DNA of 64,000 bases from a virus. The stretch is from the IMG/VR virus record IMGVR_UViG_3300032323_000939, positions 31,506 to 95,505 of that record; one strand, 5' to 3'. The notes beneath the pieces are model-generated. The model had not been told where the DNA came from, did not search any database, and saw only the letters and a list, made by a program, of their open reading frames with translations. Each line of letters starts with the position of its first letter. Position 1 is the stretch's first letter. Positions 4,977 through 19,891 of the stretch are shown here, in pieces. The position numbers and the translations under genes are program-made.

Positions 4977-6332
4977 TTACTCCTCTGTCGCTGAATCGTA
5001 GAATCGGTGGCACGTTATATCCACAGAAGAAATAATTGGAACCATTCTGTCGTTGAATATTAAGTGCTTAACTTCTAAAGAACCAATTCTTACTAAGTAT
5101 CTAAGGCCATCTCCTAAATGAAGTTCTATAGGCAATCCGTTTAACCAACCCTTATCTGCTGTCCTACCATTTAATCCAGAATCATATGTAGAGTTTAATC
5201 CCATAAGTGTTTTGAACAGGTACTCCATGTCGTACATGGTTCCTCTTCTATAGATTTCCTGTAAGTCACTAGTAGCAACAGTAAACGGATATGGGTCTTT
5301 AACTCCCGCTATTAACCCATTTGAGTTTAAGTAAGACATATCATTTGTTCTATTTAAAAGCACAGTAAAAGAGATAGTGCTGTTTAATAAACCTAAACTT
5401 ACTGGAGTAGATTTGTCTAGTCCGCTTTGCACAACTTCCCAGTTAACACCAGTTGCAATACCCCAAGTCATACCAACTTCTTTAGGGTTGTATAAAAATT
5501 TAAAGCCGTATAACTGGTCATCGTAATCTGCTTGTCTTCCAGTAGTAGATCCGTACAAACTTGTTAAAAATGCTCTACTCATTTGAATAGTGCCTTTTGC
5601 GCCAGTAACTCCCTTCCAAGCATTTTCTGCTCTCTCGTAATTACCTGGATCAGAAATTGTTCTTAAAGTATTTTGTTGTTGTGGGCTTGCATTAACTACA
5701 GATGTACCATCTGCATTGGTTACTGTAATGCCAGGAGTTAGATACGAAGTTCTAGTCATTGGAGCGTTGTACTTATATACAACTGGTGCAGGCGCAGCGT
5801 TCTTTACTACAGGTGAACCAGACGGCTTCTTTGTTGTTTTTTTAGTGGTTTTAGTTTCTTTACTAACCTTTACTTGATCTTTAGCATCTTTTGTAGCGCC
5901 CTCAATAATTGTTTTTTGAATTGATAGTCTTGTATTGTAAGCATTTGTGTATGCGGTAGTTAATGAGTTTACTTGAGCCTGTAATGGAGATACGTTTAAT
6001 CCAAAATAAGCATTGATAGCGTTCTGTTCACCTACAGTAATGGTGGTGCCTCCAGGAGATCCTGGTTGTATAGCAGCAACCTTTAAATTATCAAGTTCTG
6101 TTTTTGCTGTTGCTAAAAGTTTTTCTGCAGAAAGTTTCTGTGCTTTAAAAGAGTTCTCAACTTGTACAATATACTGAAGTCGTTGCTGAGTTTTTGCTCG
6201 TGCCGCTGCGGCAGCCTTTACTTCTTTTTCTTTTGCTCTTGCATTTGCTTGAGCCTCAAGTTGAGCCGCATAGGCTGCGCCAATGTTTGCTGGTCTAGAA
6301 AATGCATTAGGATTTCCGTGTTCGCCAGCCAT
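4977..6332 (-). CDS. Tube-initiator/baseplate-like protein with coiled-coil N-terminus
   Basis: This 451-residue protein has an Ala/Lys/Gln-rich coiled coil (residues 20-130) and a Lys/Thr linker (about 155-180). The C-terminal domain (about 270-451) is beta-rich, with GFKFLYNPKEVGMTWGIATG and ISFTVLLNRTNDMSYL. The 'F-x-F-N-P' opening and the position directly after the tape measure resemble contractile-injection-system tube/initiator proteins that connect tape measure and hub. The C-terminal domain ends with the strands VRIGSLEVKHLIFNDRM. It overlaps the tape-measure stop by one base. The family call is by pattern and position only. Confidence 0.55.
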   Translation of the reverse strand: MAGEHGNPNAFSRPANIGAAYAAQLEAQANARAKEKEVKAAAAARAKTQQRLQYIVQVENSFKAQKLSAEKLLATAKTELDNLKVAAIQPGSPGGTTITVGEQNAINAYFGLNVSPLQAQVNSLTTAYTNAYNTRLSIQKTIIEGATKDAKDQVKVSKETKTTKKTTKKPSGSPVVKNAAPAPVVYKYNAPMTRTSYLTPGITVTNADGTSVVNASPQQQNTLRTISDPGNYERAENAWKGVTGAKGTIQMSRAFLTSLYGSTTGRQADYDDQLYGFKFLYNPKEVGMTWGIATGVNWEVVQSGLDKSTPVSLGLLNSTISFTVLLNRTNDMSYLNSNGLIAGVKDPYPFTVATSDLQEIYRRGTMYDMEYLFKTLMGLNSTYDSGLNGRTADKGWLNGLPIELHLGDGLRYLVRIGSLEVKHLIFNDRMVPIISSVDITCHRFYDSATEE

Positions 6333-8410
6333 TATTTACTCCCAACTGTATTAAGTGCTCTATCTTTTAACAGGATGTCTCTTACTCTCTTTGCAAAGGC
6401 AATTGCTTCTGCATCAGATGCCTTATCAATTGTTAAAGTAATGTTCACTGTTTGTCCGCTACCCATTGGTGCATTACTACCAGTGTTATTAGCACTATAA
6501 CCTGGGATAGTTGTTCCCCAAGGAGAAGCGTTTACTGCGCCAAGGACTGCGGCAGTACTTGTTCCTTGTTTTAATGCTGCAAGGATATTACTGTATCTTC
6601 CATTTTGCAGCGTTTGAACAGTTGCAGATAATCCAGCATCATAACTTGCGTATTTTTGTACGCCAACAGAGTTCATACTTCCAGTTGAACCGCTTGTCCT
6701 TAACGTAGTGTTTAATGGATTAAACATCGCACTGTTTATACCAAGACCAGTTGACTTACCGCCACCGCCACCTTCAAACTTCATCCAAGTAGTCATAGCA
6801 GCAATATTGCTATCGGTTATTGGCGCATTAATTCTAGATAATAAATCAGTTGCAAATTGTGTCTCTGTTGCATTTCCACTTATTACTGGTGCATTCTTTG
6901 TTGAGGTCATTGATTGAACTGCTTTTGTTCCAAGATAACCTAGACCTGTAAGAACTCCACCAGCAATTGCACCTGGTACAGCACCAACACCACCAGCAAA
7001 TGAACCAGCAATACCACCAGCAGCAGCGCCAATACCAACACTACTTAAGAATCCCTGACCACTAGCAGCACCTACAACGCCTCCAACAATAGGTACGGCT
7101 CTTCCAAGAGCCATTGCACCACCTCTAACAGCAACACCTCCCGCTGTTTGTGCAGCAGTCTGTGCAACTGTTGTAGCAGCCACTTGTCCAGCACCTCTAG
7201 CCGCCATTGCGATCCCTGCTTTAGCCAACGCTGCACGAGCACCAGCAGCAACGGCAATTGTGCCTGCTGCTCCAGCAATACCGCCAAGCACTCCGCTTAC
7301 ACCAGCGCCAGGACCTGAACTTGAGAATGCTTGTAACGCACCTTTTAATTCAAAAAATTTATCAGGCAATCCCTCTAATGATTTATTTAATTTTGTTATT
7401 AAATCTGCTGCGCCACCAAGACCACGCAGTTGTGCCTCTGTTCCACGTTCCATTAAAGATGTTGCCGAAGTATTCATCTGGTAAATACCCATACTTGGGT
7501 TATCAGCACCAGACATGTTTGCTAAATCAAAGCCCTGTCCTTGACTAAAGGCGGTGAATGCCCTAACCATTAATTCTTTTTGATTTGTATCAAATCCTAG
7601 GTTTGTAAGTTCAGCACCAGCAAAGCCCTCTCGAACTGAGACCGCAATATCTCTCGCAGTTAATCCTTGTTGATTTCTAAATAAACGTCTGTAAAGTTGT
7701 CTAGCAATATCTTCAGTACTTCTAATTTCTCCAGTCTTTGTATTGATTGTACTTATACCTAATTGATAAAGATTCCCACCCATTGCTCCAGTGTGTAATC
7801 CACCAATTGCTGCAGCCGCAGTTGCATTAGGCATATTAAATCCACGAGCAGCGCCACCAACTTCTCCCATAGCCTGAGTGAATGACGCTGTTCCAGGAAG
7901 TATGTTGTAACCCTGAGCAAGCATTGCAGCGGCTGCTGCATCTTCTCCCATGCCAGTAATGCCACCCCTAAGAGCACCAAATGTTGCTGCTGCTAAGCCA
8001 GCACGAGTCATTCCTGGTGCACGAGTGGCTGCTCCATAGAAACCAGAAGCACGAGATACAGTCATTCCTAAATCTGGAAGTGCGGCATAAGCACCGCCTG
8101 CAAGACCTAAGCCAAGTTGAATACCACCAATAGTCGCTGCGCCAGTTTTAGAGTATGCCCAAGGCATAGCATTTTGAGCACCACCAGTAGTTGAGGAGAA
8201 GGTGGCATTACTTGTTCCCAAGTTCATGCCAGGGCTTTGTCCCATGTTCATACCTAGGACCTGTTTTACACTGCCAAGAGTTGTACCAGCAAGGCCAGTT
8301 ACTTTTTTTAAACCTTCGACAAGTTTATCTACTTGAGAGTTTAAACCCTTTAAACCTTTTTCAACATTGGAAATAGAACTAACGGGATCGTTATTGCCAA
8401 TACTAACCAT
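6332..8410 (-). CDS. Tail tape measure protein with lysozyme-like domain
   Basis: This 692-residue protein follows the tail chaperones, as tape measures do. It has an N-terminal coiled-coil-like region (VEKGLKGLNSQVDKLVEGLKK), a long Ala/Gly-rich helical and transmembrane-prone centre (about 95-510) and a C-terminal globular domain. That domain (about 535-650) has WMKFEGGGGG, then FNPLNTTL, NSVGVQKYASYDAGLSATVQ and LQNGRYSNIL. I recognise this as the tail-tip lysozyme/glucosaminidase-like unit that opens the wall during entry. The start at 8410 is chosen over an in-frame ATG at 8425 because AGGAG at 8416-8420 lies five bases upstream of 8410 and inside the longer reading. Confidence 0.85.
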   Translation of the reverse strand: MVSIGNNDPVSSISNVEKGLKGLNSQVDKLVEGLKKVTGLAGTTLGSVKQVLGMNMGQSPGMNLGTSNATFSSTTGGAQNAMPWAYSKTGAATIGGIQLGLGLAGGAYAALPDLGMTVSRASGFYGAATRAPGMTRAGLAAATFGALRGGITGMGEDAAAAAMLAQGYNILPGTASFTQAMGEVGGAARGFNMPNATAAAAIGGLHTGAMGGNLYQLGISTINTKTGEIRSTEDIARQLYRRLFRNQQGLTARDIAVSVREGFAGAELTNLGFDTNQKELMVRAFTAFSQGQGFDLANMSGADNPSMGIYQMNTSATSLMERGTEAQLRGLGGAADLITKLNKSLEGLPDKFFELKGALQAFSSSGPGAGVSGVLGGIAGAAGTIAVAAGARAALAKAGIAMAARGAGQVAATTVAQTAAQTAGGVAVRGGAMALGRAVPIVGGVVGAASGQGFLSSVGIGAAAGGIAGSFAGGVGAVPGAIAGGVLTGLGYLGTKAVQSMTSTKNAPVISGNATETQFATDLLSRINAPITDSNIAAMTTWMKFEGGGGGKSTGLGINSAMFNPLNTTLRTSGSTGSMNSVGVQKYASYDAGLSATVQTLQNGRYSNILAALKQGTSTAAVLGAVNASPWGTTIPGYSANNTGSNAPMGSGQTVNITLTIDKASDAEAIAFAKRVRDILLKDRALNTVGSK

Positions 8411-8571
8411 CAGTACTCCTTCCATATCTATTCTTGGCTATCTCTAACCAGTTATTTCTTTCTCTTTTAGACAAAATCTTTATGTCTTCTAGAGTCCAAC
8501 CTTCGTACAAGTGCGTTAATGCTGCCCACTCAGAGAATAGGCGCATGTAGTGCGTTACGCTAGAACCGAAA
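8403..8571 (-). CDS. Tail assembly chaperone downstream frame (T-like), +1 frameshift extension
   Basis: An overlapping frame follows the chaperone gene. From the shift point it reads GSSVTHY and then a 47-codon segment starting MRLFSEWAALTHLYEGWTLE at 8546. It is rich in aromatic residues and helix formers, unlike random sequence. Its stop (8403-8405) overlaps the tape-measure ATG. No ribosome site precedes the ATG at 8546. The +1 frame is closed by TAG immediately upstream of GAT CAT TAT TTC, so the window for a shift is under 20 bases. This is the classic position for a frameshifted G/GT-type tail chaperone, giving a fusion of about 321 residues. Independent initiation at 8546 remains possible. 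Confidence 0.6.
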
Positions 8572-8577
8572 TAATGA
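8560..8577 (-). promoter_or_regulatory. Candidate +1 programmed frameshift site
   Basis: On the minus strand the zero frame reads TTA TTT CGG TTC TAG. When TTT (8569-8571) is in the P site, a slip of one base forward re-pairs tRNA-Phe on TTC, leaving GGT in the A site. The slow-looking CGG codon and a stop two codons later favour slippage, as in other UUU-C type +1 sites. This is inferred from sequence only. Confidence 0.5.
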
Positions 8578-9369
8578 TCCTAAATTAATAGGAACCAGTA
8601 CCTCACTTTCACAATTTGGACATGTAACAGTGACGTCGTCAAATTGTGGACCTGGCGCTCTGTGGTTTATTTCATCGATAATTGCTCTGCGATCTGAAAC
8701 ACTAAGTGTTTGAACCTGTGCCTTGCTAAACACTGGAGACTCGCCAATTCTAACAACGGTATTTTCTAAAATAATTGTGCTTAATTCGGCAGATGTCTTT
8801 TCCATATTATTAATCATTTCTTTTTGAACAACTCCATTTGGCAGTTTTACAACGTACTCAACAGACTTGCCCTTTACAGTAAAGACACGATCATTAACTG
8901 GATCAGTTAATACCTTAAACTTTATATCTGTATCAATATCTACCTGAACAATCTTTTGATCAGAGCAGCCATTACAGTAAGCAGGTACTTCAACCTTTTG
9001 ACCAAATGTATTCTTTAAAATCCCAAGTAAAATTGCATCTCTATCACCAATTAATAACTGGTCTAGTAGGCGTTCATCCGCTTGTTCATCTCCAACCTTG
9101 ACCGTTCCACGGTTAAGAATTGTCATGATTGCTTTTCCTAAATTTGTTGCTTTTGATATTGCCTCTTCATCTCTACCGTTAAGTTCACGAACTTCAACAG
9201 TTTTGATAACCTCCCCAGCGGCGTTTATATAGCCACCAGGAAGGTTTACAGTTGTGTCCGAAGGAAGGACAATATCTGGAGCAAGTTCCTTTGGCTCTTC
9301 TTTTAGAGCCTTTGTTAAGAGTTCGTTTGCCAATGCGGGATTAGCCGCTGCATTAATTGTGTTCGACAT
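8560..9369 (-). CDS. Tail assembly chaperone / T4 gp26-like zinc-binding protein
   Basis: This 269-residue protein lies between the tube and tape-measure genes. The pattern is that of the T4-type baseplate/chaperone family: VEVRELNGRDEEAIS (about 60-75), LLDQLLIGDRDAILLGILKNTFG (about 105-127), a first Cys pair in YCNGCSD (about 133-139), and a C-terminal PGPQFDDVTVTCPNCESEV pair that together could bind zinc. The C-terminus, PINLGSLFRF, ends at a stop that sits inside the overlapping downstream frame. The product probably holds the tape measure and supports tube polymerisation. The link to gp26 is by motif memory. Confidence 0.72.
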   Translation of the reverse strand: MSNTINAAANPALANELLTKALKEEPKELAPDIVLPSDTTVNLPGGYINAAGEVIKTVEVRELNGRDEEAISKATNLGKAIMTILNRGTVKVGDEQADERLLDQLLIGDRDAILLGILKNTFGQKVEVPAYCNGCSDQKIVQVDIDTDIKFKVLTDPVNDRVFTVKGKSVEYVVKLPNGVVQKEMINNMEKTSAELSTIILENTVVRIGESPVFSKAQVQTLSVSDRRAIIDEINHRAPGPQFDDVTVTCPNCESEVLVPINLGSLFRF

Positions 9370-9386: not shown

Positions 9387-10016
9387 TTATGCTGGGAATG
9401 CTGCTGCTGAAGTAGTTAAGTTTGTTGCCCAGTTAACATCAAAGCCCTCATGGACTAGTGTCATTTGTTCAACAAACAGAGCGTTGTCTCCAGCATTTAG
9501 ATCAGAGTATGCCACAGAAGTTGGCCAGCAGTTATACACGTTAAAGCGCATCGCTACGTGGTCTGTGTCTGCTGGAGTATTACTGTCTGGAGTAGAACCT
9601 GGAATTGGGTGAGACAAAACTGCAATCTCTAGTTCGCAACGGAAATTCTCACCACGAGCACGGGTTGAACCTCCACCTTGAACTGTTGCAAACAAGTTTC
9701 TCATCCACTCCCAGTTTTGATTTGTTCCAAGAATTACACCACGTTGCAGTGTGATAGGAGCAAATGTAGTTTGTCCTGGAATCTGGTGAACGGTTGTGTT
9801 GTATCCACCTTCACGGTAAGGAATAGAGTCTGTTGTAACAGCCATTCCTGATATAGATGTAAAGCCTAGAGTTGCAGTTCCCAAGTTCTTTGTTGCAGTA
9901 CTTGTAGCCGCAGCACCAGTTGCTGTACTTGTTAATGGTTTAAACGTAACTAAAAATCTAAAGTTACGTAATGGATCGGTAATTAATGATGACCGATTGT
10001 TAATGATTGTAGGCAT
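9387..10016 (-). CDS. Tail tube protein (T4 gp19-like)
   Basis: This 209-residue protein carries the tail-tube pattern: DPLRNFRFLVTF at the start, then GFTSISGMAVTTDSIPYREGG, the 'G-[FL]-x-x-v-S-G-[LM]' and 'Y-R-E-G-x' motifs of gp19 tubes. QTTFAPITLQRGV and NWEWMRNLF follow. These residues form the hexameric ring beta barrel that stacks inside the sheath. The gene directly follows the sheath gene and precedes the chaperone pair, the standard myovirus order. Confidence 0.93.
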   Translation of the reverse strand: MPTIINNRSSLITDPLRNFRFLVTFKPLTSTATGAAATSTATKNLGTATLGFTSISGMAVTTDSIPYREGGYNTTVHQIPGQTTFAPITLQRGVILGTNQNWEWMRNLFATVQGGGSTRARGENFRCELEIAVLSHPIPGSTPDSNTPADTDHVAMRFNVYNCWPTSVAYSDLNAGDNALFVEQMTLVHEGFDVNWATNLTTSAAAFPA

Positions 10017-10036: not shown

Positions 10037-11539
10037 TTAGTTCAAAGTCTTTTGACTTAGATCGATGACAATGAACTCTGCTGGGTATTGAAGAGCAACA
10101 CCAACCTCTATGTGTACTTCTCCATTTGCAATTTGTTGTGCGTTATTGTTTTCATTATCGCACTTTACAAAGTAAGCCTGTGAAGCAGTTGCTCCACGAA
10201 GACCGCCTTGATTACGGTATTCATTTAAGAATGAACCAAGACTTGTACGAATCTGTGCCCATAGACGCTCATCGTTATTTTCAAAGATTGCGAATTCAGT
10301 AAGATTCTGTAGTTGCTTACGGATGTAGATTAATGAACGACGCATGTTTACATACTTGTTAGCAGTTCCATCTTGCTTCAAAGTACGAGCACCCATCACT
10401 GAAAGACCAGCACCAGGAATCTGGCGAATTGGGTTTACTGGTGATGTGCTTGCGTTCATTGTGTCTAACTCAGTAGATGTGAATGACTTCTCAACTGCAA
10501 CAACTCCTAGTAATGAGGTTGTAATACCAGCAGGGGCTTTGAATACGCCTCTGTTAGCATCAGTTGTTAAGTACAAGCCAGTTACTGCACCTGCTGGGCC
10601 AATCTTACGAAGAGCGCCAGTTCCACGGCCAATTGGATCAGCAATGAAAACAGGTGGGTAGTAGACAGCGGCATGACTTGAGTCAGTTAAACTTCCCGCA
10701 AATGAAACAGCGTTAGCCACTGTTAAATCTGGATCAGTGTCAATAACTACAAATCCTTCATTGCTTTCAGCCCAAGATGTAGCAGCGTCAAATACTGAAA
10801 CTGTTCCAGAGGCTAGTGCGTTTGCTGCTGGTATAAACAGAACTAGTGCACGGTTTAAAGAGGATAGTCTTTCAAATACAGAAGAAGCAGTTCCCTTGTA
10901 AGCAGTGTAGTCAGTAGATGCTGTTGCAGTTCCATTAGATCCACCAGTTAGTGGATAGGTTGCTGAAACAATTGTTCCTGAAGTAGACGCACTGATAGAG
11001 ATGTTTGGTGAAACTAAGTTAATAACAGTCTCAGCAAAATCACTTGATGTTGGATCGTTAAATACAACATTCTCATAACGCTCCAGAAGAACGTCATCAG
11101 TAATATCATTAGCAACACCTGACTCTTTGTAAAGAGTGAGTGTGTATGTGCTTGCAACACTACCTGCAGACACAACAACACGAAGGGTGTTGCCATCTGT
11201 TCCTGCATTCTTTGAGGTTACAGTTGCAACTACTGCGCTTCCAGAAGTTAATAGATCTACTGAAGCAGCATCTGCATCACTTGCTAGTAGGCGTTGAACA
11301 TATAGTTCACGTCCGCCATTAGCAAAGAAAGAGCCAACTTGGAAGGTGGCTGGATAGGAAGCGTTGTAGCCTCCAAAATTCTTAGTAAATTCATACCAAG
11401 ATGTAACAAGCGTTACTGATTCTGGGCCTTGTGCAAAAGGTGCAACAACTGCGCCAGCAGCATTTGCAGTAACTCCTGTTGGGAGTACTGCGGGTAGAAG
11501 GCGTTCACTGATGTAAACACCTGGACGGCTGTAAGCCAT
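10037..11539 (-). CDS. Tail sheath protein
   Basis: This 500-residue protein begins MAYSRPGVYISERLLP, the 'PGVYI-E' start that defines contractile tail sheath proteins. It contains FAQGPESVTLVTSWYEFTKNFG and the C-terminal domain LKQDGTANKYVNMRRSLIYI, IRKQLQNLTEFAIFENND and LRGATASQAYFVKCD, all typical of the conserved sheath core and C-terminal handshake. The length is usual for compact sheaths. The protein contracts to drive the tube through the envelope and proves that the phage is of myovirus type. Confidence 0.96.
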   Translation of the reverse strand: MAYSRPGVYISERLLPAVLPTGVTANAAGAVVAPFAQGPESVTLVTSWYEFTKNFGGYNASYPATFQVGSFFANGGRELYVQRLLASDADAASVDLLTSGSAVVATVTSKNAGTDGNTLRVVVSAGSVASTYTLTLYKESGVANDITDDVLLERYENVVFNDPTSSDFAETVINLVSPNISISASTSGTIVSATYPLTGGSNGTATASTDYTAYKGTASSVFERLSSLNRALVLFIPAANALASGTVSVFDAATSWAESNEGFVVIDTDPDLTVANAVSFAGSLTDSSHAAVYYPPVFIADPIGRGTGALRKIGPAGAVTGLYLTTDANRGVFKAPAGITTSLLGVVAVEKSFTSTELDTMNASTSPVNPIRQIPGAGLSVMGARTLKQDGTANKYVNMRRSLIYIRKQLQNLTEFAIFENNDERLWAQIRTSLGSFLNEYRNQGGLRGATASQAYFVKCDNENNNAQQIANGEVHIEVGVALQYPAEFIVIDLSQKTLN

Positions 11540-12230: not shown

Positions 12231-12547
12231 TATCGGTTACCTAAATGTTTGGATGTTCGGCCAATTAAAAACTTTTCAGTTTCTTGTTGACGATTTTTAA
12301 ACCGTCTAATGGCAGCGGTAGGTTGGGTGCTTGGAGTTCCGTACTCAAGGTCCATAGCCTCAGCACGATGACTCTTGTGCACGTTAACTGAGAAGGAGCC
12401 CTTGTTATGAGTCACATTTAATCCTCTTACAATATGAGATGGCCATCCAGAAGCCTGTGCTTCAGAACGAAGGTGGGCAGACATCATCCGTGTTGTTTCA
12501 ACACTGGCTTTGTTTAGAGACTCTTTAAAGTTGTTTAGGTAGTTCAC
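12230..12547 (-). CDS. HK97 gp10-like neck/head-tail joining protein
   Basis: This 105-residue protein has an N-terminal helical segment (ASVETTRMMSAHLRSEAQAS) and SHIVRGLNVTHNKGSFSVNV. It then shows SHRAEAMDLEYGTPSTQPTAAIRRF, the 'E-x-G-t-x-x-x-x-P-x-p-f-l-r' signature of gp10-like tail completion proteins. It usually adapts the neck to the terminator encoded next to it, and overlaps neighbours by one to four bases. It is complete for its family. Confidence 0.75.
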   Translation of the reverse strand: MNYLNNFKESLNKASVETTRMMSAHLRSEAQASGWPSHIVRGLNVTHNKGSFSVNVHKSHRAEAMDLEYGTPSTQPTAAIRRFKNRQQETEKFLIGRTSKHLGNR

Positions 12548-12738
12548 TTCTTTTTCTTCGCCTTCGACACAACCCTTGCTGCACCTAACGCATAGGCGGC
12601 AGTAGTACCAAGTATTAAGGCTGCGACGGCAGGACGCTTTTCTTTAGGGCGGAAACCAAACACACCCTTTATAAACTCTTCACGTTCATTCTGGTTGTTC
12701 ATTTCAGCAACTTGCTGATACCAAGGCTTATAAGCCAT
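12544..12738 (-). CDS. Small membrane-spanning or core protein
   Basis: This 64-residue product starts MAYKPWYQQVAEMNNQNERE and then has FGFRPKEKRP. It contains one hydrophobic helix (AVAALILGTTAAYALGAARV, about 38-57) and ends in a run of lysines. It is the first gene of the tail operon after a strong terminator. The single helix and basic tail suggest a membrane or capsid-internal protein, but no family is recognised. Confidence 0.65.
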   Translation of the reverse strand: MAYKPWYQQVAEMNNQNEREEFIKGVFGFRPKEKRPAVAALILGTTAAYALGAARVVSKAKKKK

Positions 12739-12781
12739 AATAAATAACCCCTTTTTCGCAACCTGTGGGACAGTAGTCAGG

Positions 12782-12794
12782 CACCGCAGCGGTG
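12782..12794. promoter_or_regulatory. Hyphenated palindrome CACCGC-A-GCGGTG
   Basis: A perfect 6+1+6 inverted repeat sits in the 77-base gap between the terminator at 12815-12842 and the start of the tail operon at 12738. This is where a promoter or operator for the tail genes would be expected. No clear -10/-35 pair was found, so its role is open. Confidence 0.35.
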
Positions 12795-12814
12795 TTCTGA
12801 TACAGCAATGATAA

Positions 12815-12842
12815 ATGAAAAAGCCCCCTAGTTGGGGGCTTA
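12815..12842 (-). terminator. Rho-independent terminator
   Basis: On the minus strand AAGCCCCC, a five-base loop and GGGGGCTT form a perfect eight-pair stem followed by TTTTTC. It lies eight bases beyond the stop of the last gene of the small basic gene run. It separates that run from the tail operon. Confidence 0.85.
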
Positions 12843-12849
12843 GTCATTA

Positions 12850-13098
12850 CTACTTTTTAAACTTCTTTTCTCTTTTGTCTTCAGCCTTCTCGCCCTTCTT
12901 ACCTTCTTTGGCTTCGTGCTTCTTAGACATAGATTTAATCTTTTTTACGTTAGCAACATCCATCTTGCGGTCATCCTCTTGGGACTTAGGCTTGCGATGC
13001 TTCTTATCCATCTTTTCAAACTTAGCCTTTTCCTCTTTGTCAAGACCTTTAGTGGTCTTGGCATCCTGCTTCTTGTCGGAGGCCTTGGTGTACTTCAT
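12850..13098 (-). CDS. Very basic small protein, Lys-rich
   Basis: This 82-residue protein is roughly one-third lysine, with alternating acidic residues (KEEKAKFEKMDKKHRKPK, KKHEAKEGKKGEKAEDK) and a predicted long charged helix. It has no cysteines or hydrophobic core. The start overlaps the stop of the upstream gene (TAATG). It is the last member of a chain of tiny genes and ends just before a strong terminator. A DNA-binding or capsid-internal role is plausible from charge only; no family is recognised. Confidence 0.7.
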   Translation of the reverse strand: MKYTKASDKKQDAKTTKGLDKEEKAKFEKMDKKHRKPKSQEDDRKMDVANVKKIKSMSKKHEAKEGKKGEKAEDKREKKFKK

Positions 13099-13235
13099 TA
13101 CATGCCCTTCTTACGAGGAAGCATGTTTTTGGTTTTACCCTTTTTTAAGGCTTTAAAATCAGCGCCAGTAATTTTATTTGTTGGCTTTGCAGCACTAGCA
13201 ATCTTCATCTGCTTAGGTGTAAGGTCTTTCTTCAT
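13098..13235 (-). CDS. Small basic protein, 45 residues
   Basis: This frame reads MKKDLTPKQMKIASAAKPTN, then KITGADFKALKKGKTKNMLP and RKKGM. The motif 'LT-P-K-Q-x-K-I-A' followed by 'K-I-T-x-A-D-F-x-x-L' is one I recall from small phage proteins that accompany DUF5872/DUF6496 genes. It overlaps both neighbours through TAATG. The function is unknown. Codon-level continuity and both overlaps support that it is real. Confidence 0.7.
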   Translation of the reverse strand: MKKDLTPKQMKIASAAKPTNKITGADFKALKKGKTKNMLPRKKGM

Positions 13236-13300
13236 TATTTACCTTTCTGGCAAGTAGGGCACTTGCACTTGCAGTTCTTCATAGTGCATTTAAGGGCCAT
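13235..13300 (-). CDS. 21-residue Cys-rich peptide
   Basis: The frame reads MALKCTMKNCKCKCPTCQKG then K. Its five cysteines, arranged C-x4-C-x-C-x-C-x2-C, would suit a metal or structural zinc site. Both ends overlap neighbours by TAATG, the linkage used throughout this gene chain. That context, not length, is the argument for it being a gene. Confidence 0.5.
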   Translation of the reverse strand: MALKCTMKNCKCKCPTCQKGK

Positions 13301-13416
13301 TATTTTTTGTCCTTTTTCTTATCTGTCTTCTTTTTAGCATACTTTTTGTTAGCAGCGGCTAGAGTCTTTTCTCCGTGTTTATCTTTTGGCTTCATACAGC
13401 CACAGGTAGCGCACAT
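13300..13416 (-). CDS. Small CATCGC-motif protein
   Basis: This 38-residue protein starts MCATCGCMKPKDKHGEKTL and ends in a Lys-rich tail. The 'M-C-A-T-C-G-C' opening with 'K-D-K-H-G' looks like a compact zinc knuckle. The adjacent gene at 13416-13505 has the same opening, so the two are probably diverged duplicates. It is coupled to both neighbours by TAATG overlaps. Confidence 0.65.
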   Translation of the reverse strand: MCATCGCMKPKDKHGEKTLAAANKKYAKKKTDKKKDKK

Positions 13417-13505
13417 TATTTACCCTTTGGCTTTGGTTTGGCTTTTGGACCCTTACCGAATCCTGGTTGACCTTTTTTCTTACCGCATCCACATGTTGCA
13501 CACAT
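13416..13505 (-). CDS. Small CATCGC-motif protein, second copy
   Basis: This 29-residue product begins MCATCGCGKKKGQPGFGKG and continues with a Lys/Pro tail. The first seven residues are identical to the neighbouring 38-residue protein, which suggests duplication of a zinc-knuckle start with different basic tails. It ends in a TAATG overlap with that neighbour. Confidence 0.6.
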   Translation of the reverse strand: MCATCGCGKKKGQPGFGKGPKAKPKPKGK

Positions 13506-13514
13506 TGGCTTTTC

Positions 13515-13751
13515 CTATCTATGTCTTGCCGTTTTTTTGGCAATTGATTTGGGTTGTTTTACAAACTGCTTTCCCTTGCTATTGCCTTCTGCTTTAGCAC
13601 GGTTGGTCGCAGCCTTTTCTGAAGGAGTAAGAGTATCCCACGCTTTGTCTGGTAGGTAACGCTTTTTACCTTTAGATTCTTTGCCATCTGAAGTGCGCCA
13701 TTTTTCATTGCCCCACTTCTTTAGGGATTGTTGTGATTTAGCAAGAGCCAT
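13515..13751 (-). CDS. DUF5872-like small basic protein
   Basis: This 78-residue protein has MALAKSQQSLKKWGNEKWRT, SKGKKRYLPDKAWDTLTPSE and KAATNRAKAEGNSKGKQFVK. I recognise this pattern from small proteins found in many marine and freshwater phages and some giant-virus genomes. They are usually described as DUF5872-like and of unknown function. The high Lys content and absence of hydrophobic segments suggest nucleic-acid contact. It is coupled to its upstream neighbour by a one-base overlap. Confidence 0.78.
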   Translation of the reverse strand: MALAKSQQSLKKWGNEKWRTSDGKESKGKKRYLPDKAWDTLTPSEKAATNRAKAEGNSKGKQFVKQPKSIAKKTARHR

Positions 13752-13948
13752 TACTTGTACCCTCCGCCTGCTTTCTTATATTCAGAAGCAAGAAGTTGAG
13801 CCTTACGAGCAGACCACTCTCCTGGATCTCCGCCTTTAGTTCCAGCCTTTATCTTCTTAAATAAACTCTTACGCATTCCAGGCTTGGTGTAATTACCAGC
13901 CTCATTTACTTTTGACTTTGGTTTTGCTGCTGCTTTTTTTGCTGCCAC
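13751..13948 (-). CDS. DUF5872-like small basic protein, GTG start
   Basis: This 65-residue protein contains KVNEAGNYTKPGMRKSLFKK and IKAGTKGGDPGEWSARKAQL, the second conserved unit of the DUF5872-type proteins. The GTG at 13948 is chosen because AAAGGAG lies six bases upstream. The longer in-frame ATG at 13996 would lie mostly inside another gene (13902-14042) read in a different frame. The two genes therefore overlap by 47 bases. The function is unknown; a role with DNA is inferred from charge. Confidence 0.75.
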   Translation of the reverse strand: MAAKKAAAKPKSKVNEAGNYTKPGMRKSLFKKIKAGTKGGDPGEWSARKAQLLASEYKKAGGGYK

Positions 13949-14042
13949 TTTTTGCTCCTTTCGATGCTGGTACACAGTTAGGCACTCTCTTGCCATTCTT
14001 TATCTTAAAACCTTTTTGAACGTAACCTTCCCAACATGCCAT
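13902..14042 (-). CDS. Small phage protein 'MACWEGYVQKG' type
   Basis: This 46-residue frame starts MACWEGYVQKGFKIKNGKRV then PNCVPASKG, followed by a Ser/Lys-rich tail. The conserved C-W-x-G-Y-x-Q-x-G ... V-P-N-C pattern is familiar from many environmental phage structural regions. Two conserved cysteines could form a metal or disulphide pair. Its start overlaps the upstream stop by TAATG, and its 3' end runs 47 bases into the next gene. Confidence 0.75.
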   Translation of the reverse strand: MACWEGYVQKGFKIKNGKRVPNCVPASKGAKSGSKKSSSKTKVKSK

Positions 14043-14272
14043 TACTTTTCCTTACCTTTATGGGGGTTGTTCTTGTGCCAATCCTTAACTGCTTTAACGC
14101 CCTGCTTAACTGTTTTAGATCCACCCTTTTTAGTTAGGTTTATCTTATCCCACTTACCTTGATCACCAGCGTGATCCACAATTACATCGCCTCTTTTATT
14201 CTTTTTAACAGTGTGCTTAGTGCCACCAGCCTTTAAAGTTTTTGGCTTCTCATCTTTCTTTTTGTTAACCAT
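14042..14272 (-). CDS. Basic protein, possibly toxin-like/DUF2188-like fold
   Basis: This 76-residue protein contains GDVIVDHAGDQGKWDKINLT followed by KKGGSKTVKQGVKAVKDWHK and NNPHKGKEK. Residues 25-60 give a short strand-helix pattern, and the whole is strongly basic. No family is recognised with confidence. It is chained to both neighbours by TAATG/TGATG overlaps. Confidence 0.7.
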   Translation of the reverse strand: MVNKKKDEKPKTLKAGGTKHTVKKNKRGDVIVDHAGDQGKWDKINLTKKGGSKTVKQGVKAVKDWHKNNPHKGKEK

Positions 14273-14454
14273 CAGGCTACCGACTTCTTATGTTTGTAAC
14301 GCATTGGGGCCTTTGGTCTTCTAATTACGCCACCTTTTTTTCGCTTTGGTTTAGCGCCACCAGACTCATATCTACTTTCAGCAATGTTTGTTTCAACATT
14401 CTTCTGAGGCTGTTTACCAGCCCTTGCACCAATTCCTGAACGACGTTTCTTCAT
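14272..14454 (-). CDS. Arg/Lys-rich 60-residue protein
   Basis: The product is dominated by basic and Gly residues (MKKRRSGIGARAGKQPQKN, GAKPKRKKGGVIRRPKAPMR). It lacks hydrophobic segments and has one acidic-neutral stretch (ETNIAESRYESG). It is chained to its neighbours by one-base overlaps. A nucleic-acid-binding role is possible from charge only. Confidence 0.68.
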   Translation of the reverse strand: MKKRRSGIGARAGKQPQKNVETNIAESRYESGGAKPKRKKGGVIRRPKAPMRYKHKKSVA

Positions 14455-14630
14455 TACTTACTCTTCTTTTTCTTAGACATTCCCGCTTCGCTCATTGCAA
14501 TAGCAATTGCTTGTTTCTTTGATTTAACTACTGGGCCTTTTTTAGAGCCGCTATGAAGTTTTCCTTCTTTGTACTCTTTCATAACCTTCTCTACCTTACC
14601 CTTTTTAACAGCACTTGCTTTCTTAGCCAT
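14454..14630 (-). CDS. DUF6496-like small protein
   Basis: This 58-residue frame reads MAKKASAVKKGKVEKVMKEY then KEGKLHSGSKKGPVVKSKKQ and AIAIAMSEAG. The pattern 'V-x-K-V-M-x-E-[FY]-K-x-G-x-L-x-S-G-S-K-K-G-P-V-V-x-x-x-x-Q-A-I-A-I-A-x-S-E-A-G' matches what I know as DUF6496, common in environmental phages and bacteria. The function is unknown. Both ends overlap neighbours by TAATG. Confidence 0.82.
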   Translation of the reverse strand: MAKKASAVKKGKVEKVMKEYKEGKLHSGSKKGPVVKSKKQAIAIAMSEAGMSKKKKSK

Positions 14631-14755: not shown

Positions 14756-15958
14756 TTACACTGGAAACACTAGACTAGAAAGCCAAGCAGAGGTTGAGTC
14801 AGGGGTAACATTCCCATTAGTGTAAACAGTGATGTGCGTTAACTCAGAGGTGCCAAATTTTTGAGCAGGAATTACAACATCTACAGTTGGTCTATACTCA
14901 ACTGGCAAATTAAACGCTGTAGAATTAGCAGTTCCACCAGATACATTTCCTCGTAAATAAACTACTCCATCTATTTTTTTATATGCTGGTGAGTTACCTC
15001 CTGTATAACTATTGCTAAAAGAAGAAATTGAAATCCAACCAGAATCTGTAGTTGCACCAGAAGGACCCTGTGTGCCTTGAGTGCCCTGTGCACCAGTTCC
15101 ACTAGCACCTTGTATACCGACTGTGCCTTGAATACCCTGTACTCCCTGAACGCCTTGTGCACCTTGTGCTACTGCGGAACCACTAAGTCCTTGAGCACCA
15201 TTAAATCCTTGGACTCCTTGAGAGCCATCTCTACCCTGAACTCCTTGAGCGCCTAATGTTCCTTGAGTTCCTTGTAATCCTTGTACACCAATGTTTCCTC
15301 TTGTACCTTGAACTCCTTGTGCAGCAAATGCACCGTCTAATCCTTGAGTTCCTAGGGCACCTTGCACACCTTGAGTACCACGAGTTCCTTGTGTACCTTG
15401 AATTCCATCATTACCAACGGTGCCCTGAATACCTTGTGCACCTTGTGCACCAACAGTTCCAGTTCTACCTTGAACACCCTGCGTCCCTTGGGAACCAGTT
15501 GCACCTTGAGCGCCAGTTAATCCCTGTGCACCACGGGTGCCTTGCACACCTTGAGTTCCTGTAGCACCTTGTGTACCAGTATCGCCCTTAGTTCCTTGTA
15601 CGCCTTGAGCGCCAGTAGATCCCTGCGTACCAAGTGCTCCTTGAGATCCAAGTGTGCCCTGTGCGCCAACAGTTCCTTGCGTGCCCTGTGAACCAGTCGC
15701 ACCAGTAGATCCCTGTGTTCCTAACAATCCCTGTGTACCTTGTGATCCTGCAGTACCTGCAGTGCCTTGTGTACCTGCCCCAGTTGCACCACGAGAACCT
15801 TGTACACCAGTTCTACCTTGCACACCTTGCGGTCCTTGAATGCCTTGAAGAGTTGCGTCTGTTTCAATTCCTTGAACTCTTGTATTTAAATTATCTAATG
15901 CAGCATTTAAAGTAACATCCCAATTATTTGCACCTCTAACTGGCTTAACAAATGTCAT
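14756..15958 (-). CDS. Collagen-like tail fibre protein
   Basis: This 400-residue protein has an N-terminal segment of about 35 residues (FVKPVRGANNWDVTLNAALD, then a coiled-coil NLNTRVQGIE). A collagen-like array of Gly-x-y triplets follows at about 38-305, mostly G-x-Q with few prolines. The C-terminal domain (about 306-400) is compact: TTDSGWISISSFSNSYTGGN, VVYLRGNVSGG, ending WLSSLVFPV. That domain resembles the trimeric fibre tips used for receptor binding. It lies in a block of fibre genes, and its DNA is highly repetitive on both strands. Confidence 0.82.
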   Translation of the reverse strand: MTFVKPVRGANNWDVTLNAALDNLNTRVQGIETDATLQGIQGPQGVQGRTGVQGSRGATGAGTQGTAGTAGSQGTQGLLGTQGSTGATGSQGTQGTVGAQGTLGSQGALGTQGSTGAQGVQGTKGDTGTQGATGTQGVQGTRGAQGLTGAQGATGSQGTQGVQGRTGTVGAQGAQGIQGTVGNDGIQGTQGTRGTQGVQGALGTQGLDGAFAAQGVQGTRGNIGVQGLQGTQGTLGAQGVQGRDGSQGVQGFNGAQGLSGSAVAQGAQGVQGVQGIQGTVGIQGASGTGAQGTQGTQGPSGATTDSGWISISSFSNSYTGGNSPAYKKIDGVVYLRGNVSGGTANSTAFNLPVEYRPTVDVVIPAQKFGTSELTHITVYTNGNVTPDSTSAWLSSLVFPV

Positions 15959-18445: not shown

Positions 18446-19162
18446 TTATTCAAACCAAGTAACAAAACATACGCCAGACCCACCAGCACCACCATTACCA
18501 CCACTACCATCACTAGAGCCACCACCGCCGCCTCCGCCACCAACGTTTACAGATCCTGACGCAGCATTTTCACCCTCTCCACCATCTCCCCCACCAGCGG
18601 CACCAGGAGTTAATCTTCTTCCAACGCTATTGGTTCCGTACCAACCCCCTACACCACCACCGCCACCAAACCCAAAACCTCCAGGTTGACCAGGAGTTGG
18701 ATCAAAAGAATAACTAAGGTTACCAGTTTGCGCAGTTGAGTCTGATACTCCACCTCTTCCAGAACCTTCAGGAACAGAAAGAGTTCCACCTTGGATTGTC
18801 CCACCTTCTGAAGTTAGCAAGTTACCAAAACTAGAAGCACCACCTGAATTTGGTGCAGATCCGCCACCTCTAACACCACCAGTACCACCAGCACCAATTG
18901 TCACAGTTACATTTCCAGATGCAATTTCAAAACTTCTATTTTTAACTGCTCCACCAGAACCGCCAGAAGCGCCTTGCGATTGACTAAAGTTTGCTTGTCT
19001 ACCACCAGCACCGCCACCTACTAATAATACTTCAACACTTCCACCGTAATTAGATACAGTTGGTACAGCGAATGTTCCACTGGCATTAAAGACCTGCTGT
19101 TTTTTTGAACGCACTCCACCACCACCACCTGCTGATGGAATTGGAAATACTGAAAGTCCCAT
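18446..19162 (-). CDS. Glycine-rich tail fibre/tip protein, copy 1
   Basis: This 238-residue protein begins MGLSVFPIPSAGGGGGVRSK and contains FNASGTFAVPTVSNYGGSVE with VLLVGGGAGGR. Glycine-rich segments (residues 55-225) include several runs of five or more Gly. It ends GGAGGSGVCFVTWFE. Such Gly-rich domains fold as polyglycine-II bundles at phage fibre tips (Salmonella phage S16-type adhesins, for example). It is a tandem paralogue of the next gene, and the two share start, middle and end motifs. Confidence 0.8.
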   Translation of the reverse strand: MGLSVFPIPSAGGGGGVRSKKQQVFNASGTFAVPTVSNYGGSVEVLLVGGGAGGRQANFSQSQGASGGSGGAVKNRSFEIASGNVTVTIGAGGTGGVRGGGSAPNSGGASSFGNLLTSEGGTIQGGTLSVPEGSGRGGVSDSTAQTGNLSYSFDPTPGQPGGFGFGGGGGVGGWYGTNSVGRRLTPGAAGGGDGGEGENAASGSVNVGGGGGGGGSSDGSGGNGGAGGSGVCFVTWFE

Positions 19163-19180: not shown

Positions 19181-19891
19181 CTATTCAAACCAAGTAACAA
19201 GACATACGCCAGACCCACCAGCACCACCAGAGCCACCGCTAGAGTTGTCTGAACTTCCGCCGCCGCCACCACCGCCAGCATTCACAGATCCTGACGCAGC
19301 AGTACCAGGTCCTTCACCACCATCTCCACCACCAGCGCCGCCAACAGATCTTCTTCTACCAAGGTTTGTATGAGCACCAGCACCGCCGCCGCCAGAGAAA
19401 CCAAAAGTTCCAGGTTGACCAGGAATTTCAGTCCATGAAACTTCAGTATTTCCATTGCTGCCAAAACTTGTTTGTATTCCACCTCTTCCAGAACCTTCAG
19501 GATTAGAAATAGTTCCACCTGAGATTGCTCCACCTTCTGAAGTTAGCAAGTTACCAAAACTAGAAGCACCACCTGCACTTGGTGCGGCTCCAAAGTTTGC
19601 AACACCACCATTACCACCAGCACCTACTGTTACAGTTACAGATGCGCCAGATGTTACTGCAAGAACTCTACGCTTTACTGCTCCGCCAGAACCACCTGCT
19701 CCAGATGCGCCAGGATGATTTGCTTGTCTACCACCAGCGCCGCCACCTACTAATAGTACTTCAACATTGCCACCGTAATTAGATACGGTTGGCGCAGTAA
19801 AAGTTCCAGTAGAATTAAATGTCTGTTGTCTCTGCTTAGTTATTGCAGCGCCACCACCGCTAGATGGAGTTGGAAATACTGATATTCCCAT
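19181..19891 (-). CDS. Glycine-rich tail fibre/tip protein, copy 2
   Basis: This 236-residue protein is parallel to the preceding paralogue: MGISVFPTPSSGGGAAITKQ, FNSTGTFTAPTVSNYGGNVE, VLLVGGGAGGR, a shared SSFGNLLTSEGG block near residue 110 and the ending GGAGGSGVCLVTWFE. Differences concentrate in loop-like stretches (residues 80-105 and 140-180), as expected when receptor-binding tips diversify after duplication. It overlaps the upstream gene by one base. Confidence 0.8.
   Translation of the reverse strand: MGISVFPTPSSGGGAAITKQRQQTFNSTGTFTAPTVSNYGGNVEVLLVGGGAGGRQANHPGASGAGGSGGAVKRRVLAVTSGASVTVTVGAGGNGGVANFGAAPSAGGASSFGNLLTSEGGAISGGTISNPEGSGRGGIQTSFGSNGNTEVSWTEIPGQPGTFGFSGGGGAGAHTNLGRRRSVGGAGGGDGGEGPGTAASGSVNAGGGGGGGSSDNSSGGSGGAGGSGVCLVTWFE

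Follow-up and report, generated by a model that had tools for sequence, protein, structure and literature searches.

Introduction

In phage lambda, gpG and gpGT are encoded between the genes for the tail tube and the tape measure protein, where a second, out-of-frame ORF without a start of its own is reached by a −1 shift at a conserved heptamer near the end of the first ORF; the product is a small C-terminal extension, and the stimulator lies downstream of the slip site. Very likely +1 frameshifting has been described for the tail chaperone gene of an archaeal virus, the haloarchaeal myovirus HSTV-2, for which the available text of PMC5009743 describes neither a hairpin nor a UUU-C site; the other described frameshifts in tail chaperones are −1 (e.g. 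PMC12846349). PMC5009743 also names phage T4 as the exception to the G–T rule. T4 carries two paralogous genes, gp26 and gp51, both of which match PF12322.

Outside the tail chaperones, +1 slippage in the P site is aided in prfB (RF2) by an SD:anti-SD duplex just 5' of the E site, with the Shine-Dalgarno (SD) about 3 nt from the P-site codon and UGA in the A site. At the PA-X site of influenza A, UCC_UUU_CGU, the eukaryotic ribosome slips with tRNA-Phe in the P site, with no stimulator known according to PMC5009743, in which UUU_Ynn is also given as +1-prone in bacteria. Hairpins immediately 5' of the E site of a +1-prone site have been studied in designed reporters by Cho, Huang and Chang, in earlier engineered work (PMC3639245, as far as its available text goes) and in a 70S system, in which a refolding hairpin adjoining the E site stimulated +1 shifting and acted like an internal SD duplex (PMC6321510).

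The locus analysed here lies in a stretch of 64,000 nucleotides from a viral record (IMG/VR IMGVR_UViG_3300032323_000939), termed the window; all coordinates refer to it and all features are on the minus strand. Comparative sequence analysis makes it very likely that one chaperone gene yields a short (TAC-N) and a long (TAC-NC) product via a +1 slip at UUU-C, probably helped by a hairpin. The likeness to gpG/gpGT extends to the position between tube and tape measure, the second ORF without its own start, a conserved slip site close to where the first ORF ends, and the small extension; in contrast to lambda, the predicted shift is +1 at UUU-C and not −1 at a heptamer, a covarying hairpin lies upstream, and the protein belongs to PF12322 and has two zinc-binding-like CxxC motifs. 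Whereas T4 has two paralogues, there is one gene here, with the long form predicted to arise by frameshifting and collinear with the C-terminal extension of gp51. The predicted mechanism has P-site slippage and a duplex just 5' of the E site in common with prfB, but the SD-like GAGGU is 29 nt away, an mRNA hairpin takes the place of the SD duplex, and a sense codon (CGN or CAR) occupies the A site. With PA-X the site shares UUU followed by C, a P-site tRNA-Phe and often a CGN codon in the A site (52/80 here); this similarity is convergence, not kinship. Unlike the designed hairpins, the one described here is natural and covaries in evolution.

Organization of the tail module

The gene order is tail sheath protein (10037..11539; PF17482, E 6e-10; phrog_23, E 1.5e-47), tail tube protein (9387..10016; PF06841, E 1e-25), ORF1 (8560..9369), ORF2 (8403..8567) and a long ORF (6332..8410). 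The phage is contractile-tailed. The long ORF is a putative tape measure gene by position and length, searches of Pfam and phrog profiles having returned no family match; its SD-served start is the ATG at 8410-8408 (SD GGAAGGAG), and the mechanically called ORF begins at 8425.

ORF1, the putative short isoform of the tail assembly chaperone (TAC-N; 269 aa), is assigned from PF12322, phrog_150, the fold match and its location. It starts at ATG 9369 and ends GGA TCA TTA TTT CGG TTC TAG, with the TTT at 8571-8569, the following C at 8568 and the stop TAG at 8562-8560; the candidate slip site UUU-C thus occupies 8568..8571, and the stop that would end the short isoform (8560..8562) comes three codons past UUU. 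ORF2 is the candidate +1-frame C-terminal extension of the long isoform (TAC-NC), 54 aa plus stop. On its 5' side the +1 frame is closed by TAG 8582-8580; it opens with GAT 8579-8577, reads TTC GGT TCT AGC GTA ACG CAC TAC ATG ... TAG from the slip site, and ends with TAG 8405-8403. The initial annotation had proposed a +1 frameshift here from two sequence features, the end of ORF1 (TTA TTT CGG TTC TAG) and a +1 frame closed upstream by TAG and open from GAT; both features were confirmed. The ORF2 stop, which had been said merely to touch the ATG of the tape measure gene, in fact overlaps that gene by 8 nt.

ORF1 belongs to the family of T4 gp26 and gp51

ORF1 matched PF12322 with 44.7 bits (cut-off 24.5; E 1.7e-11), and it also matched phrog_150. 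This family membership, together with the hairpin and the conserved AGGU described below, is an addition to the initial annotation. A structure model of ORF1 only (pLDDT 87) is similar to the predicted structures of T4-like gp26/gp51 proteins, with a best E of 9e-19. The best solved structure was the HK97 tail assembly chaperone 2ob9, with a probability of 0.93–0.94 and a poor E of 0.17–0.38, and the modelled fold thus matches that chaperone weakly. The ORF1 model (8563-9369) also looks internally duplicated, with two similar strand/helix runs that each hold a CxxC pair.

T4 gp51 reaches about 48 aa past the PF12322 region. A profile of the ORF1–ORF2 fusion was collinear with gp51 through the junction (E 4e-4, probability 34%); the ORF2 domain alone gave a weak match to the gp51 C-terminus (E 0.034). 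One PF12322 gene per record was found in 14/14 records searched, double rows in two of these being pieces in the same frame. The simplest reading is that frameshifting here yields what T4 makes with two genes.

Relatives of the locus

Single-sequence scans of viral and genome contig collections returned no relatives, whereas alignment-based queries did; a tblastn search of phage records with ORF1 matched the Streptomyces BRock group only, at about 36% identity. From the alignment-based IMG/VR scans the best 80 of the 514–575 confirmed relatives per scan were taken, and 16 BRock-like loci were added. The relatives are nearly all metagenomic contigs. With the window counted, 247 of the 249 sequences with a match have an in-frame TTT-C at most 9 codons from the stop. 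One of the remaining two was ended by the contig edge; the other, L225, keeps TTT-C and has lost the nearby stop. L225 has TAT where its close relatives have the zero-frame TAA, with TTT-C and the +1 frame both present; this would lengthen its short form by about nine codons, unless the change is a sequence error. For the counts below, a non-redundant set of 80 representatives at <90% protein identity was used.

The BRock group has the same gene order, with ORF1 between the tube gene and a long ORF. Its ORF1 ends read CTG TTT CGC GAA CTC TGA, CTG TTT CGC GAA CTC TAA or CTG TTT CAG GAA CTC TGA, and the +1 frame continues into a domain homologous to that of ORF2. In the Streptomyces phages LuckySocke, Alone3, BRock and GiJojo (L001–L004), public annotations label ORF1 as a baseplate protein or as hypothetical, and the +1 frame is given a small gene of its own, with its start within or after the beginning of the conserved domain; the small genes of BRock and LuckySocke start inside it, at TTG and ATG. 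Our results suggest that in Streptomyces phages like BRock this locus has been wrongly annotated as a 'baseplate protein' and a small gene; it looks like one frameshifted gene.

The proposed slip site

TTT-C was present in 80/80 representatives, the BRock group included; among the other Phe codons of the same genes it occurred in 11/515, and 36% of those codons are TTC. The initial annotation had asked whether TTT-C is conserved in relatives, and the site proved invariant. Phe267, the slip codon, is the most constrained of 121 codon columns. On a protein tree built with the last 20 columns left out, it underwent 0 synonymous changes, compared with 10 and 13 for two other conserved Phe columns and 4–25 for all other conserved two-fold columns. 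The codon that would occupy the A site was CGN in 52/80 and CAR in 28/80 and never AGR, which elsewhere makes up a quarter of the Arg codons. In 80/80 representatives UUU is followed 3–4 codons later by a zero-frame stop; the codon before UUU varies (TTG, TTA, CTG, TTC, CTA).

The anticodon of tRNA-Phe is GAA. UUU-C is a predicted site of P-site re-pairing because tRNA-Phe would shift from a G·U wobble on UUU to G–C on UUC. No X_XXY_YYZ heptamer for −1 slippage was found, and the downstream frame is +1.

A nucleotide-only search with the pattern of the whole element matched at least 120 IMG/VR stretches, of which 76 were examined; in 74 of these the match falls where an ORF1 homologue ends. 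Within the window the complete element has a single occurrence (expected 0.00). A stimulator on the 3' side was also considered, but in the window the sequence after the slip site folds no better than shuffled sequences (z 0.21).

Slippage at the stop codon itself was considered and rejected, since at TTC TAG the tRNA would have to re-pair with TCT, and the final codons are not shared between the groups.

The downstream frame

In 80/80 representatives no stop interrupts the +1 frame over the 44 codons past the slip site, and 0/80 have either of the other two frames open that far; this upholds the +1 direction originally proposed. ORF2 encodes a conserved domain of about 50 aa; the entropies at its three codon positions (1.19/0.92/1.48) indicate protein-level selection in the +1 frame, and among 65 aligned fusions W281, W291, R302, R304 and W307 are invariant or nearly so.

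A start codon within the first nine ORF2 codons was found in 9/80 representatives, and 48/80 had an ATG, GTG or TTG somewhere ahead of the GW motif; of 62 candidate starts, 7 follow an SD-like sequence. The sole ATG near the start of ORF2 in the window, at 8546, has no SD and is not conserved in relatives. Because starts and SD-like sites are few and the +1 frame is conserved, separate initiation of ORF2 is unlikely. The earlier claim that no ribosome site serves the downstream frame is borne out by these numbers. A product that starts at ATG 8546 or is not conserved had been named as a sign against frameshifting; the product proved to be conserved and ATG 8546 did not, an outcome in line with frameshifting.

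The upstream hairpin and the AGGU element

Immediately upstream of the slip site (8575..8597) the window can form the hairpin UGGU-U-CCUA (UUAAUU) UAGG-AUCA, a modest structure with one bulge and a predicted energy of −6.4 kcal/mol. Its 3' arm stops one base before the E-site codon TTA, about 4 nt 5' of the slip codon. Taking the first T of TTT as 0, positions −24..−18 pair with −11..−5 around a loop at −17..−12. The pair −19/−10, formed by third positions of a Pro and a Leu codon, ranks first in mutual information among 15,576 column pairs, and all four Watson-Crick types occur (TA 26, GC 21, CG 10, AT 5; n=70). Since its Watson-Crick class switched at least 9 times on the tree, this covariation does not stem from one inherited event. 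The covariation score of the stem was 0.361, versus 0.169 for shuffled and 0.03–0.14 for slid alignments, with 89% of cells pairing, and RNAalifold found the identical stem unaided. Members differ in the outer pairs, with −22/−7 unpaired in 20/70. In three exceptions with 'CC' (L137, L144 and L153) the stem forms in a register shifted by one, and in most of the BRock group it is likewise register-shifted (CCCAC-UGAAC-GUGGG). The distance from hairpin to slip site is nearly constant across the two phage groups.

Folding was also compared with that of synonymous-codon shuffles. For the 27 nt before the slip site the mean z was −1.96 in the main group and negative in 70/70 sequences; the window itself scored −1.89, and BRock-like phages −1.49. 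A window slid over the rest of the gene gave z near zero, with −0.71 as the lowest value.

Further upstream, AGGT at −32..−29 is nearly invariant (A and T in 80/80, each G in 79/80). The Glu256 codon is GAG in 69 and GAA in 1 (n=70), while elsewhere GAA is twice as common; together with Phe267 and Ile261, Glu256 is one of three columns with outstanding synonymous constraint. The resulting GAGGU (8600..8604) resembles an internal SD. It lies 29 nt 5' of UUU, and looping out the hairpin would bring it to about 6–8 nt from the P site; it could act through an anti-SD contact that bridges the hairpin, or by causing a pause. On the alignment an alternative partner for GAGGU is ACCUU just 5' of the slip site, rather than 16S rRNA; one side of this pairing hardly varies.

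The Ile261 codon (8589-8587, at the start of the hairpin loop) is ATT in 60 of 61 relatives with Ile there. Since its third base lies in the loop, the constraint goes beyond pairing, and it possibly reflects a loop contact.

Proposed mechanism and alternatives

We infer that slippage occurs in vivo, with an efficiency such that most ribosomes would halt at the zero-frame TAG and release TAC-N. Some ribosomes, holding peptidyl-tRNA-Phe on UUU in the P site, would slip +1, re-pair on UUC and read on to give TAC-NC with its 54-aa C-terminal domain. The hairpin 5' of the E-site codon would refold as it leaves the ribosome and favour forward movement, like the internal SD duplex of prfB, and GAGGU, farther 5', may contribute a contact with the anti-SD or make the ribosome pause. 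The proneness of UUU_Ynn and the effect of an E-site-adjacent hairpin would therefore be combined in the phage element. By analogy with gpG/gpGT, TAC-N may coat the tape measure protein and the tail of TAC-NC may recruit tube subunits. The comparative evidence favours such a G/GT-like role, which had been proposed from the gene's location between those for the tube and the tape measure protein.

In BRock, LuckySocke and GiJojo, ORF2 has been annotated as a separate small gene, which would be expressed by re-initiation or coupling from an internal start such as ATG 8546 and would make UUU-C incidental. That the window has this ATG, and that 48/80 relatives have some start before the GW motif, fits such a gene; the position of the start is however unconserved, few starts lie in the first nine codons (9/80) or follow an SD-like sequence (7/62), and in every relative the open +1 frame extends upstream past the ORF1 stop. 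A separate gene also leaves the conservation of UUU-C and of the hairpin at synonymous positions of ORF1 unexplained, and we regard it as very improbable. A −2 shift or transcriptional slippage would reach the same frame as a +1 ribosomal shift, and the junction peptide may differ only around the slip. Against both, there is no homopolymer past UUU and the preceding codon is variable; no heptamer allows −2 re-pairing across the relatives, and the invariant C after UUU suits +1 re-pairing to UUC. Of all readings these are the hardest to credit.

The +1 shift could also be real with the hairpin and AGGU serving another role, for instance in mRNA stability or in translation of the tape measure gene. 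Conservation alone tells no function, and UUU_Ynn is shift-prone by itself (PMC5009743). The hairpin, however, ends at the E-site codon with nearly fixed spacing to the slip site in two phage groups, an upstream duplex at that codon is known to stimulate +1 shifting (PMC6321510), and the tape measure start is some 160 nt off, so that a different role seems unlikely, if less so than the other two alternatives. On balance, the locus probably represents a natural bacterial +1 element of new build, in which AGGU, a covarying E-site hairpin and UUU-C are joined, the hairpin replaces the SD duplex of prfB, and the long chaperone, for which T4 has a second gene, is produced; the element would be widespread in contractile phages.

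In a limited literature search we found no report of PF12322 chaperones with +1 frameshifting or a natural covarying upstream hairpin, and the reports found on E-site-adjacent hairpins came from engineered constructs only. The hairpin would be a natural, phylogenetically supported E-site-adjacent structure that pushes the bacterial ribosome forward. A +1 shift appears to operate in T4-family chaperones here, linking the T4 exception with G–T frameshifting, and the compact cassette of about 40 nt lends itself to studying how upstream mRNA duplexes set the direction of a shift.

Additional features of the window

Tandem small, very lysine-rich ORFs of 45–82 aa lie at 12544-14630, with no long direct repeats between them. 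The gene at 14756-15958 encodes a probable fibre protein of 400 aa that has collagen-like GxQG repeats. Two adjacent, similar glycine-rich proteins of 238 and 236 aa (18446-19162 and 19181-19891) are probably the products of a duplicated tail or fibre gene.
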